Assembly: GCF_900107545.1 (NCBI RefSeq) | Contig: NZ_FNQZ01000022.1 | Location: forward strand, 1 to 33,789 | DNA length: 33,789 nucleotides | Reading direction: 5' to 3' | DNA from: Pseudobutyrivibrio sp. ACV-2 | GTDB taxonomy: Bacteria > Bacillota > Clostridia > Lachnospirales > Lachnospiraceae | In this document: in pieces, positions 16,360 through 20,164 of the stretch | How the letters are laid out: every line of letters starts with the position of its first letter | How positions within the stretch are numbered: position 1 is the stretch's first letter | Notes under the pieces: generated by a model | The model's input: only the letters and a program-made list of their open reading frames with translations | The model's database searches: none | Told to the model about the DNA's origin: nothing | Position numbers and translations under genes: made by a program

Positions 16360-18240
16360 TCACCCAATCAGCACCTTTTTCCCCTGAAAAGCAAATCCAT
16401 AGTGATGAATCTTATCTGCCTCTACTCCAGCATTAATCAATTCAGCATCATACTGTTTTTCTGTGATTTGGTTCAACGCATTTCGTACTGTATCGTCAAG
16501 GCCAGCTTCCACATCAGAATCATAGACTTTAAACTCTAACACGTATGCTGGATTATTTTTATCTTTGGGTATTAGGCAAACATCATATCTGCCAAATCCA
16601 CTTTCTCTATTGGATTTAATCTGGTATTTTTCTGCCAGGTCTACGATTAAGCCCAGCACAAAGCCATGATAAAACCGTTCTGGTTCTGCATATTCCGATG
16701 GTCGCTTTCCTGTGTCAAATGATGAATAAGTATTCAGCGCAATTTCGTTCATGAATTTATTCATATATTTCAAATCGTTGTTTAATAGAGCCTGAATGAA
16801 ATCGTTGTACCTAGTGTTGCTACCTTCAAACCATCTTTTTACCATGTCTTTAAACATGTGCATTACCTCGGTGTTTGTGATGGCTACTCTGCATTTTTTG
16901 CGCATTCCTGCTCCTTCAAGAAGCTCTGTTTTTTTCAGATATCCTGAAGCTAAAAGCATACTGAATACCGCTGATTCACTTTTATCAATCAAATTAAAAA
17001 CTATTTCTTCATCAATTAATGTATCAACACTCTCACCGTCTAATAACGTTTCAAACTTTTTCTTGATATCTGGGCTTCCCTCACGTATCAATTTGTCAAT
17101 CAGCATATTGCTACTTGTGTTTGCCCAATAATCATCTAAGATTTTTGTATCCAAAAACTGTGTTATGGACCACGGATTATAAATGTCCTTTTTGGTGCCA
17201 ATCACAAATCCATCATACCACTTTTGAACCTCCGCATTCAGTGCAGACAATCCATACTCTTCAAGTGATGATGATACTTCATCTCCAGTGAATCCAAATG
17301 CCGTTTCATACTTGGCAGTTGTTATTGATGCCACCTTTAGATTATTCAGATCAGAGAAAATAGATTCCTTGCTGACTCTTGTGATTCCAGTCATTATTGC
17401 ACGTTCAAGATAGTTATTTGTCTTGAAAGTTGCATTAAAAATATTTCTAATGAAAACTGTAATCTCATCCCAAAATCCATCTACAAAAGCTTCTTGCAAT
17501 GGAGTGTCATACTCATCCATGAGGATTATGACCTTCTTACCGTATTTACGATACATAAGTTCACATATAAAATTAATAGCATTGCTAGCTACAGCATCTG
17601 ACATATCATAACCCACAAGTGACCAAAAATCCCTGTCTTTTTCAGATACAAAATCGCATTCTATCAAGTCCTGATTATTTCGATATAGCCTTACAATCTC
17701 TTGGATTATCTGCTGTCTGGCCATTTCGTATGTGTTGCCCTTTACAGATGCAAAGCTGATGAAGATGGTTGGATACTGCCCCTGGAGCTTCTGGTAGTCT
17801 TTATATTTCCATATTGCCAGGTTTTCAAATAGCCTTTTTGTATCCTCAATAGAGTTTGAGAAGAAATAATCTAACATACTCATATTGAGGGTTTTACCAA
17901 AGCGCCTTGGTCTGGTAATAAGAGTTACAACATCACCACTTTCCCACCACTCTTTGATAAACATAGTCTTATCCTGATAAAAATAATTGTTTTCAATAAT
18001 GGTTTTAAAATCCTGATTACCAATGGATATCTCTCTCGTGTGAACATTTTCAGGTACTCCTGATTCAGCCAAAAGTATTTTTTCCAAAGCCTCCATGGTT
18101 TCAAATCTAGGAGATGCTATTTTCCCACCCAAGACTTTTTGAACTGTACTTAAGTTGACACCTGACTTTTCAGCAATTTGCTCATATGTCATTTTCGACT
18201 TTTTTTTAGCATTTATCAGTTGTTCTATTCTCATATCCAT
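16360..18240 (-). CDS. XRE helix-turn-helix fused to AAA-ATPase/PD-(D/E)XK protein
   Basis: About 626 residues in three parts. Residues about 8-42 form an XRE/Cro-type helix-turn-helix (TYEQIAEKSGVNLSTVQKVL). Residues about 70-420 are the predicted AAA-ATPase family (PF09820-like): a modified P-loop RPRRFGKT (110-117), Walker B IILMDEYD (238-245), MTGITRVSKES and WYDGF. Residues about 530-626 are a PD-(D/E)XK-like nuclease fold (PF08011-like) with D553 in GRYD and E569-F-K571. The family is widespread in Clostridia and Bacteroidetes, but its function is unsettled; defence, selfish-element and DNA-repair roles have all been proposed by inference. The start is ATG 18240 or 18234; both follow a weak GGTGA, and the frame extends only to a TTG further upstream. 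The HTH and the palindromes before the gene imply autoregulation. Confidence 0.9.
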   Translation of the reverse strand: MDMRIEQLINAKKKSKMTYEQIAEKSGVNLSTVQKVLGGKIASPRFETMEALEKILLAESGVPENVHTREISIGNQDFKTIIENNYFYQDKTMFIKEWWESGDVVTLITRPRRFGKTLNMSMLDYFFSNSIEDTKRLFENLAIWKYKDYQKLQGQYPTIFISFASVKGNTYEMARQQIIQEIVRLYRNNQDLIECDFVSEKDRDFWSLVGYDMSDAVASNAINFICELMYRKYGKKVIILMDEYDTPLQEAFVDGFWDEITVFIRNIFNATFKTNNYLERAIMTGITRVSKESIFSDLNNLKVASITTAKYETAFGFTGDEVSSSLEEYGLSALNAEVQKWYDGFVIGTKKDIYNPWSITQFLDTKILDDYWANTSSNMLIDKLIREGSPDIKKKFETLLDGESVDTLIDEEIVFNLIDKSESAVFSMLLASGYLKKTELLEGAGMRKKCRVAITNTEVMHMFKDMVKRWFEGSNTRYNDFIQALLNNDLKYMNKFMNEIALNTYSSFDTGKRPSEYAEPERFYHGFVLGLIVDLAEKYQIKSNRESGFGRYDVCLIPKDKNNPAYVLEFKVYDSDVEAGLDDTVRNALNQITEKQYDAELINAGVEADKIHHYGFAFQGKKVLIG

Positions 18241-18278: not shown

Positions 18279-18353
18279 AAATTGCAATTTCGGCATTGCT
18301 CGCATTCTTATTATAGCAAAAAATTGCAATTCCGTTAACTGAAATTGCAATTT
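18279..18353. promoter_or_regulatory. Three-site palindromic operator array (AAATTGCAATTT)
   Basis: The perfect palindrome AATTGCAATT occurs at 18280-18289, 18322-18331 and 18343-18352. Copies 1 and 3 extend to the 12-base AAATTGCAATTT. Centres are 42 and 21 bp apart, that is four and two turns of B-DNA, so all three sites lie on the same face. The middle copy sits between the -35 and -10 elements of the downstream promoter. Copy 3 lies just upstream of -35, inside the last codons of the preceding gene, and copy 1 lies about 13-24 bases after the expected start of transcription. The obvious candidate ligand is the XRE domain of the protein encoded directly downstream. Confidence 0.8.
18310..18338 (-). 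promoter_or_regulatory. Promoter of the XRE-AAA-ATPase gene
   Basis: Minus-strand TTAACG (18338-18333) and a perfect TATAAT (18315-18310) are separated by 17 bp. The -35 element overlaps the TAA stop of the upstream gene. Operator copy 2 fills the spacer. The predicted start of transcription is near 18303, leaving a leader of about 63 bases. Placement of the palindromes over and around this promoter supports it being real and repressible. Confidence 0.6.
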
Positions 18354-20041
18354 AAAGCACTCATCTCCAACGTGGCCAGCTTATCATCAAACAGACCTCC
18401 GCCCCTAACAATCCTACAAAAATGCTTCTTATATCCCTCATCCACATTCCTAGCATCAGCATCATAACTGATTCCTATTATCAGCATATTTCCCTTATAA
18501 TGCTCTAACCTGTCAGAATAATTTCTAGAGAGGATTTGGTCTATGGCTTCTTGCGGGCTCTTACCATTTTTTAACTCTATTAGTAGTAAAGGTTTGTCCG
18601 TATGTTTAGGCGATGGTATGTAAACCAAATCTGCATACCCTTTACCAGAATCCACTTCCTTGAATTCTGTATAGTACTGCTGACCTGCGTAGAGAGCGTA
18701 CTGAAGCGTGTGACTTAAGGACAATTCTGAGTTATAGGATTTATTATCTGTCCTGTCATGAGTCCATTCGATGATATCAGCGACCGTTTTTTCATCACAG
18801 TTCCAAATAGCATCTAGCAACTCTATTGATTTTGTCATTGCCTCAATTGGCTCTTGCCACTGAGGGTCATCACTGGTTGAATCTTTGAATACTTCAAAAA
18901 TTTCTCTGTTTGGAATAAAAACTTCTTCAGTTTCAGAATCATATCCTAAATATCCCAAATGAATAAGCAGAGCCAACACATCGTCTTTACTTTTGAAAGT
19001 GGTCATATCATTTTGATATTTAGATATGTTTATTTTCATTCTGCCGTTATTCATCAAAATACCCGTATATTCTTTTAAGCCATCAAAATCTTTACGGATA
19101 TACTCTGCCAATGCCTCATAGGTTTCGGTATTATTCCAGTAGTTACCTATTATGCCTGTGCGCATAGCCTGGACAACCGACAGCGGACTATAAATAGCGA
19201 TTTTGTGTCTCTCGTATTCCCCTGCCCTATATAACTCACGCTTATCAAGTGGGATGCTATCAGCCACAGTGTAACCATCGTACCATTTTTCCACTTCCTC
19301 TATATCCATTTTGTATTCATGGCACAGTCCCTCCACTTCCTCTGTGGTAAAACCTGTATATTTGGCAAACTGCATAGGATATAGCATAGAGTATTCATCA
19401 AACATATTTAATGCCGAGTGCTCTCCATATTTTTTGATAGGAAGAATTCCTGTCATATATGCTAAGGCGATGTAGCTTTTGTCTTTAAACCAATCACGCA
19501 AGAAGTCTAAATAAAGGTTCTGCCCCTCCTTATCATCTTTACGGATTCTAAAAATCGCATCCCATTCATCTATTACGATAACAAACTGAGTCTTTTCCTT
19601 AAGATACAATTTATCCAAGCTGTAAAATAAATCTTCAGAATCATATTCCACATTTGGAAATTCTTCACGTAGTTCAGATATAATTCGTGCTGTAATTAGC
19701 TTAATAGCATCTGCAACTGATTTATCCTTCTTCACAAAATCAGTCATAACTATTCTAATCACATTATATTTGCCTAATTCATCGTCCCATTCATTTGGTG
19801 ATTCACTTGCTACAACCTTGTCTTCAAACAAACTTCTGGATTCAATAGCTCCATAATAAGCACATATCATATCTGCAGCCATAGTTTTTCCAAAACGACG
19901 TGGACGTGATACGCTAATATATTTTTGCTTTGTGCCAATAACCTTGTTAAGCTCCGAAATCATCCCAGTTTTATCAACATAAATATCTGATTTTATTGCT
20001 TCTTCGAATCTTTGTATTGGCGGATTTAAATAGATACCCAT
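18335..20041 (-). CDS. AAA-ATPase/PD-(D/E)XK family protein
   Basis: About 568 residues, paralogous to the next gene but without a helix-turn-helix. It has the modified P-loop RPRRFGKT (46-53), Walker B FVIVIDEWD (153-161), MTGILPIKKYG, WYDGY, and a C-terminal nuclease-like region with D471 in GYADLVYIP and E489-L-K491. These are the features of the predicted AAA-ATPase family with a PD-(D/E)XK tail. The start was set at ATG 20041 (MGIYLNPP), where GAGG lies 8 bases upstream. Two in-frame ATGs (20062, 20086) extend the frame but have no better ribosome site. Its last codons encode NCNF through operator copy 3 of the following gene. It has its own promoter candidate, so the pair may be an independent insertion in the sugar operon. 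Function unknown. Confidence 0.88.
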   Translation of the reverse strand: MGIYLNPPIQRFEEAIKSDIYVDKTGMISELNKVIGTKQKYISVSRPRRFGKTMAADMICAYYGAIESRSLFEDKVVASESPNEWDDELGKYNVIRIVMTDFVKKDKSVADAIKLITARIISELREEFPNVEYDSEDLFYSLDKLYLKEKTQFVIVIDEWDAIFRIRKDDKEGQNLYLDFLRDWFKDKSYIALAYMTGILPIKKYGEHSALNMFDEYSMLYPMQFAKYTGFTTEEVEGLCHEYKMDIEEVEKWYDGYTVADSIPLDKRELYRAGEYERHKIAIYSPLSVVQAMRTGIIGNYWNNTETYEALAEYIRKDFDGLKEYTGILMNNGRMKINISKYQNDMTTFKSKDDVLALLIHLGYLGYDSETEEVFIPNREIFEVFKDSTSDDPQWQEPIEAMTKSIELLDAIWNCDEKTVADIIEWTHDRTDNKSYNSELSLSHTLQYALYAGQQYYTEFKEVDSGKGYADLVYIPSPKHTDKPLLLIELKNGKSPQEAIDQILSRNYSDRLEHYKGNMLIIGISYDADARNVDEGYKKHFCRIVRGGGLFDDKLATLEMSALNCNFS

Positions 20042-20070
20042 TTTATTTCCCTCAGAAATCATTTGTTCAG

Positions 20071-20083
20071 TGTTAGTGTAACA
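20071..20083. promoter_or_regulatory. Inverted repeat in leader of the AAA-ATPase gene
   Basis: TGTTAGTGTAACA is a perfect 5-bp inverted repeat around GTG, lying in the leader about 30 bases before the chosen ATG and downstream of the candidate promoter. It could be a small operator. It does not match the AAATTGCAATTT sites of the neighbouring gene. One copy only, so support is weak. Confidence 0.25.
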
Positions 20084-20164
20084 CATCAGCTGTTCAATGC
20101 TCTATCCTCAGCAGAATTATATACTTAATGTACTGAAATATTTACACGTTGTTCGATACAAATA

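Follow-up and report, generated by a model that had tools for sequence, protein, structure and literature searches.

An array of palindromes on its own promoter suggests that an XRE-HTH/AAA-ATPase/nuclease gene of Pseudobutyrivibrio encodes a self-repressing enzyme

A gene of Pseudobutyrivibrio sp. ACV-2 encodes an ATPase-nuclease with an N-terminal XRE-type helix-turn-helix (HTH), and several copies of one short palindrome lie on its predicted promoter. What binds these palindromes, and what does this do to the enzyme's expression? We use "window" for the whole stretch of DNA that was analyzed, 33,789 nucleotides of contig NZ_FNQZ01000022.1. Since a fused DNA-binding domain is found together with copies of its putative target on the gene's own promoter, the enzyme most likely shuts off its own expression, and our comparisons make it quite probable that the window gene encodes an enzyme that represses itself.

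The likely start of the gene is the ATG at 18240, which aligns with the ATG of both orthologues described below; the ORF finder gave a TTG at 18279. An earlier sequence-only reading of the window had described the product as an XRE HTH joined to an AAA-ATPase with a PD-(D/E)XK-like tail. Pfam places PF09820 and PF08011 over their cut-offs, and HTH_3 at 22.5 bits comes just short of its cut-off of 23 (Table 1). The protein of the orthologous locus L018 scores 17.3 bits for HTH_3 against the same cut-off. D553, E569, K571 and Q591, as well as the Walker residues, are invariant in 32 aligned proteins. Because the Walker and D-E-K residues do not vary, the window ATPase-nuclease looks catalytically intact by its motifs. 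The closest solved sequences were XRE proteins (best E 0.22), plus one repeat protein that resembles a chance match. None of the PADLOC-DB families matched the two window proteins or L020 at E<=0.01. PF09820 is named among the AAA domains of RADAR, PARIS1 and Old-tin in the accessible part of one source (PMC10952713), and the window genome contains 11 matches to it. By eye, the three Pseudobutyrivibrio copies of the gene (window 330-33601, L050 and L051) lie among or beside surface-polysaccharide-like genes, such as those for glycosyltransferases and a DegT-type aminotransferase.

The sole promoter-like match between 18150 and 18500 is TTAACG-17-TATAAT, running from 18338 to 18310 on the minus strand; promoter-like matches as such are not enriched over shuffled sequence (1 found, 1.4 expected). 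Three exact copies of AATTGCAATT are present in the window, and all three lie on or near this predicted promoter (O1, O2 and O3, Table 1). The sequence-only reading had placed three palindromes with centers 42 and 21 bp apart, one upstream of the -35, one between -35 and -10, and one past the start site. Exactly these spacings were found, and the offsets of -37, -16 and +26, counted from the first base of the predicted -10 to the site start, agree with that layout. Shuffled windows contained a mean of 0.37 copies, and none of 100 contained three. Across the whole genome (G000, 3.66 Mb in 45 contigs) there are 13 copies, compared with 6 of the reversed control, and the 10 remaining copies are all within ORFs (minimum length 80 aa; one has just 98 aa). 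A chance origin of the array was ruled out by the shuffles, the genome-wide count and the ORF location of the other copies. O1 doubles as coding sequence for the final residues of the neighboring gene (18335-20086) and is therefore not strictly intergenic.

Table 1. Features of the window gene, its predicted promoter and the palindrome array
Feature	Position	Strand	Details
XRE-HTH / AAA-ATPase / PD-(D/E)XK gene, 626 aa	16360..18240	-	
HTH_3 domain, residues 11-56	18073..18210	-	22.5 bits, E 1e-4; Pfam cut-off 23
AAA-ATPase_like PF09820, residues 73-295	17356..18024	-	155.1 bits; curated cut-off 26.1
PDDEXK_9 nuclease domain PF08011, residues 520-625	16366..16683	-	70.6 bits; cut-off 25.5
Predicted promoter TTAACG-17-TATAAT, extended -10 (TGC before)	18310..18338	-	consensus match only
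O1, AATTGCAATT	18343..18352	-	immediately 5' of -35; starts -37 from first base of -10
O2, AATTGCAATT	18322..18331	-	-35/-10 spacer; starts -16 from first base of -10
O3, AATTGCAATT	18280..18289	-	presumed 5' leader; starts +26 from first base of -10
Upstream neighbor, PF09820-PF08011 paralogue without HTH	18335..20086	-	

Within the genus, a match to both HTH and enzyme was detected in 3 of 29 genomes (G000, G016 and G018). Among the best 80 of 206 stretches encoding relatives, L050 and L051 alone match from the HTH onward, and the others match from residue 47 or later. The palindrome pair is found in all three genus genomes with the gene and in 1 of the 26 without it (Fisher P 0.001). The one gene-less genome, G005, has two copies of AATTGCAATT 33 bp apart (L190:1501-1543), which by eye lie between citrate-synthase-like and LysR-like ORFs, and no XRE-PF09820 gene was found there. 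In the 299-genome sample of the family, two other genomes have the pair (L046 and L048, both within ORFs), as many as for the reversed control.

Relative to the -10, exact sites fall at -37, -16, +17 and +27 in L018. In the other orthologous locus, L017, they fall at -56 and -16, with AATAGCAATT (1 mismatch) at -37, and its leader has nothing closer than 2-mismatch copies. The exact three-site layout is therefore variable: the 21-bp O1-O2 pair recurs, and the leader site shifts in position. Compared pairwise, the three upstream regions are identical in 19-20 of 20 site columns and in 9-14 of 28 other columns. Residues 27-41 of the HTH are identical at 14 of 15 positions in all three proteins, which fits an identical operator in the three genomes.

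The genomes compared are one per species, many of them incomplete. The 299 family genomes yielded no further XRE fusion, and 341 genomes of the class yielded one (G524). The genus of G524, represented by 79 genomes, has nine XRE fusions altogether, 54-66% identical to the window protein, so the set of XRE-PF09820 genes numbers 12 from two genera (3 from Pseudobutyrivibrio and 9 from the second genus). No relative was found in 58 candidate stretches of viral contigs. The sequence-only reading had staked itself on finding the palindromes upstream of homologues, and 9 of the 12 genes do have two to five copies of AATTGCAATT in the 160 bp upstream, with no more than one mismatch per copy. Each of the nine has a shuffle P of 0.004 or less, and because the 12 genes are related, they do not amount to 12 independent trials. 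The motif had already been settled when the upstream DNA of the second genus was first examined, and 6 of its 9 genes have at least two copies at the same tolerance.

The spacing of the sites also recurs. L226 has three exact copies spaced 21 and 21 bp, L227 has five sites spaced 21, 21, 23 and 39 bp, and L214 retains the central site at -16 with a single mismatch, which shuffled letters give at one fixed offset with a probability of 0.00018. When adjacent spacings were pooled, 21 bp accounted for 8 of 19, and a Rayleigh test at 10.5 bp on the 19 spacings gave R 0.67 (P about 2e-4). The proposal that the sites share one face of the DNA thus holds for the group, but the third site of the window, at 42 bp, is not a fixed element.

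Exact copies of AATTGCAATT were absent upstream of 140 HTH-less relatives, three of which have one 1-mismatch copy, and upstream of 29 genes with a different N-terminal domain, HTH_17. To be kept, each of the 140 HTH-less controls had to show a Walker A pattern and have 150 or more upstream bases; as a group they are unlike the test genes in genus and base composition. A count of repeated 8-mers, which is free of any motif, reached P<=0.01 in 10 of 12 XRE, 10 of 29 HTH_17 and 13 of 140 HTH-less genes.

Two side observations were made during these searches. Relatives of the window HTH alone (model positions 3 to 58-63) are encoded at G565:C11:400298, G681:C9:168130 and G703:C14:72202, in frames of 247-347 aa without an AAA match, and this HTH may have other fusion partners. 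Five genomes (G163, G182, G313, G081 and G103) each have 58-69 PF09820-like candidates at first look, 14 of which were scored and several of which have internal stops; this crowding reflects a large family expansion.

The 3 of 12 XRE genes without the AATTGCAATT motif (L229, L240 and L241) all have other repeats. In L229, whose recognition helix is GLSKSTVQKVLGGQ, TATCATT/AATGATA occurs six times (0 of 2000 shuffles), and three of the copies are spaced 21 and 21 bp. L241 has TATCATT three times and the helix GLSLSSVQKVLGGA, and L240 has AAATGCTATTT twice and the helix VLEGK. In two of the three outliers, L229 and L241, the TATCATT repeat and a missing lysine after GG go together. L227 and L239 have N in place of this lysine and keep the old motif, and L226 and L240 also have one TATCATT each. 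These few cases suggest that the change of repeat and helix is a change of specificity.

Other explanations of the array have to be weighed against self-repression. O1 and O2 could mainly serve the upstream gene as the stem of its intrinsic terminator, the palindromic look being a by-product. A terminator-like site was indeed found on O1-O2 (1, compared with 0.1 in shuffles), and the RNA fold has a z of -4.3 in the window and -6.8 in L018, followed by a U run. L017, however, has only a weak fold there (z -1.4) that lacks a following U run, yet its O2 is exact at the same offset. A terminator also leaves unexplained why each unit is itself a palindrome, why copies occur in the leader, why the 21-bp register exists, and why L226 and L227 have three and five copies. 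We therefore reject a terminator as the sole explanation and consider it very improbable as the main one; termination is a possible side role of O1-O2 in the window and L018.

The protein could also bind the array and yet activate its own promoter as a positive-feedback switch. This would suit the imperfect -35 (TTAACG) and the placement of O1, where an activator could stand, but O2 falls inside the -35/-10 spacer of the window, L017 and L018 promoters, and L214 has the site at that offset too; this placement fits a steric block better. Activation seems very improbable to us. The last explanation is that a different regulator binds the sites and controls the window gene. The pair between two other genes in G005, a genome that yielded no XRE-PF09820 gene, indicates that another factor may recognize AATTGCAATT. 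Against this, the other ten genomic copies are confined to ORFs, the array tracks HTH-fused genes and has no exact copy in the HTH-less relatives, and repeat and helix vary together. A different regulator is, in our judgment, very improbable.

Self-repression is also supported by the same habit in a second DNA-binding domain, HTH_17, which became fused to this enzyme family independently. A separate PF09820 clade has an HTH_17-like N-terminus, which scored 18.2-26.4 bits in the four proteins tested, all below the cut-off of 27. At least 37 of the 299 family genomes have a match starting no later than model position 9. A tree was built from 69 selected rows, with the XRE genes represented by 3 of the 12. 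These three group in a single clade (100/100) that is nested within HTH-less rows. The HTH_17 rows form a separate clade (100/100), which includes five rows labelled "none" (L165, L175, L187, L188 and L189) whose N-termini do match HTH_17. The separate clades indicate that the two fusions are independent.

The HTH_17 genes have an inverted repeat, TTCGGAAnnATATCAA...TTGATATnnTTCCGAA, upstream, with one arm over the -35. Of 34 loci, 29 were counted, since the same five loci had no gene start by pattern and were dropped. A half-site derived from the loci seen first had higher scores in 23 loci seen later than in the 140 HTH-less genes (P 6e-10), the 6 first-seen loci being excluded from this test. 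TTCCGR is present for 14 of 18 proteins with ER at helix positions 3-4 and 1 of 8 that lack ER and have N at position 7 (Fisher 0.003). For [GC]CGAAA, the counts are 5 of 18 and 7 of 8 (Fisher 0.009), and the background is 22 of 140 for either pattern; the two helix classes were picked after looking, and three proteins belong to neither. The operator letters of the HTH_17 genes thus appear to covary with the recognition helix. A test for a single inverted repeat reached P<=0.05 in just 11 of 29 upstream regions. A strict operator pattern was too strict for use, with 3 matches in 299 genomes: HTH_17-PF09820 genes in G155 and G164 and a hairpin next to an ORF that by eye resembles MurG. An HTH_17-PF09820 gene preceded by a repeat array is found in the window genome as well (L006 / L160, G000:C23). 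A phage-labelled faecal record (L212, MT838830.1) contains another such gene, and inspection by eye shows a GCGTTT-type inverted repeat ahead of it.

A PF09820-PF08011 protein encoded on the Roseburia sp. 831b plasmid p_831b_unnamed1 (L211:2690-4878) has a different N-terminus, with no Pfam match there. It was tried as a distant XRE member (H21, aligned from residue 9) and rejected because its N-terminus differs, and it is outside the 12. Its gene has a perfect 21-nt inverted repeat upstream that overlaps a TATAAT; a T run follows the repeat, which may therefore be a terminator. This protein is a possible third kind of N-terminal fusion.

For the window gene, self-repression brings together the array, its conservation, its absence in HTH-less relatives, the motif that changes with the helix, the restriction of the array to this one promoter in the genome, and the intact ATPase and nuclease motifs. 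The N-terminal XRE-type HTH would bind AATTGCAATT at O1, O2 and O3, and the predicted target of the HTH or the full protein is AAATTGCAATTT. The HTH probably acts as a dimer or as a larger assembly joined via the AAA module. O2 in the -35/-10 spacer and O1 beside the -35 would present the same face two helical turns apart, and because of this position, their occupancy is expected to block RNA polymerase sterically. We infer binding, repression and cooperativity at the array from sequence. The blocked promoter would keep the ATPase-nuclease scarce. More speculatively, engagement of a target by the AAA-nuclease part, or its nucleotide state, might draw the protein off the operator, so that expression rises.

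Proteins that are both enzyme and repressor are known. NadR is an XRE-like HTH fused to nucleotide-binding enzyme domains and serves in both roles. Its model matches the HTH part of the window protein only (E 0.0034, 16.5 bits compared with a cut-off of 201), and NadR differs in that its enzyme is unrelated, with no homology past the HTH. The sequence-only reading knew of no described example of this arrangement. For the PF09820-PF08011 family this stands, as no description of autoregulation was found in the literature searched, which scarcely covered subscription journals; more broadly it does not, given the enzyme-autorepressors M.SsoII and large ParA. According to the portion of PMC6100179 available, M.SsoII, the DNA methyltransferase of the SsoII restriction-modification system, represses its own gene via an N-terminal domain that binds a palindrome near its promoter cooperatively. 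The same portion describes the enzyme and repressor functions as mutually exclusive and the site as confined to its own systems (PMC6100179). M.SsoII differs in being a methyltransferase with a single 15-bp site that also raises expression of a partner gene (PMC6100179), whereas the window system is an AAA-ATPase-nuclease with an array at 21-bp steps. Type Ia (large) ParA is a plasmid ATPase that represses its own promoter with an N-terminal HTH. As described in excerpts of PMC9178275, several dimers assemble on the promoter, nucleotide state affects function, and smaller relatives without the HTH do not repress. In contrast to the window protein, large ParA is a deviant Walker ATPase of plasmid partition with ParB as co-repressor and no nuclease domain (PMC9178275). 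The DUF1703 family (PF09820 + PF08011) shares both enzyme domains, ATPase and nuclease, with the window protein, as well as its deviant Walker A, RPRRFGK; the accessible passages on it describe no N-terminal DNA-binding domain or operator and give its function as unknown (PMC1913061, PMC6387759).

PF09820-PF08011 proteins are widespread and numerous in some genomes, and the part of PMC6387759 available to us assigns them no known function. Operators paired with fused domains provide a handle on these enzymes: reporters on these promoters would reveal when the enzyme is engaged and would make its targets directly testable. The operator changes that accompany helix changes (AATTGCAATT to TATCATT; TTCCGAA to GCGAAA) are a small natural data set on HTH specificity. 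As a tentative idea, which we consider rather unlikely, PF09820 ATPase-nucleases may form a self-sensing class. Unrelated DNA-binding domains (XRE, HTH_17 and perhaps a third) would have been fused to them repeatedly, with repeat operators on their own promoters (helically phased in the XRE kind), and titration onto a target, or a nucleotide or oligomeric change, would empty the promoter and amplify expression. If true, such a class would be an alarm without a separate sensor.
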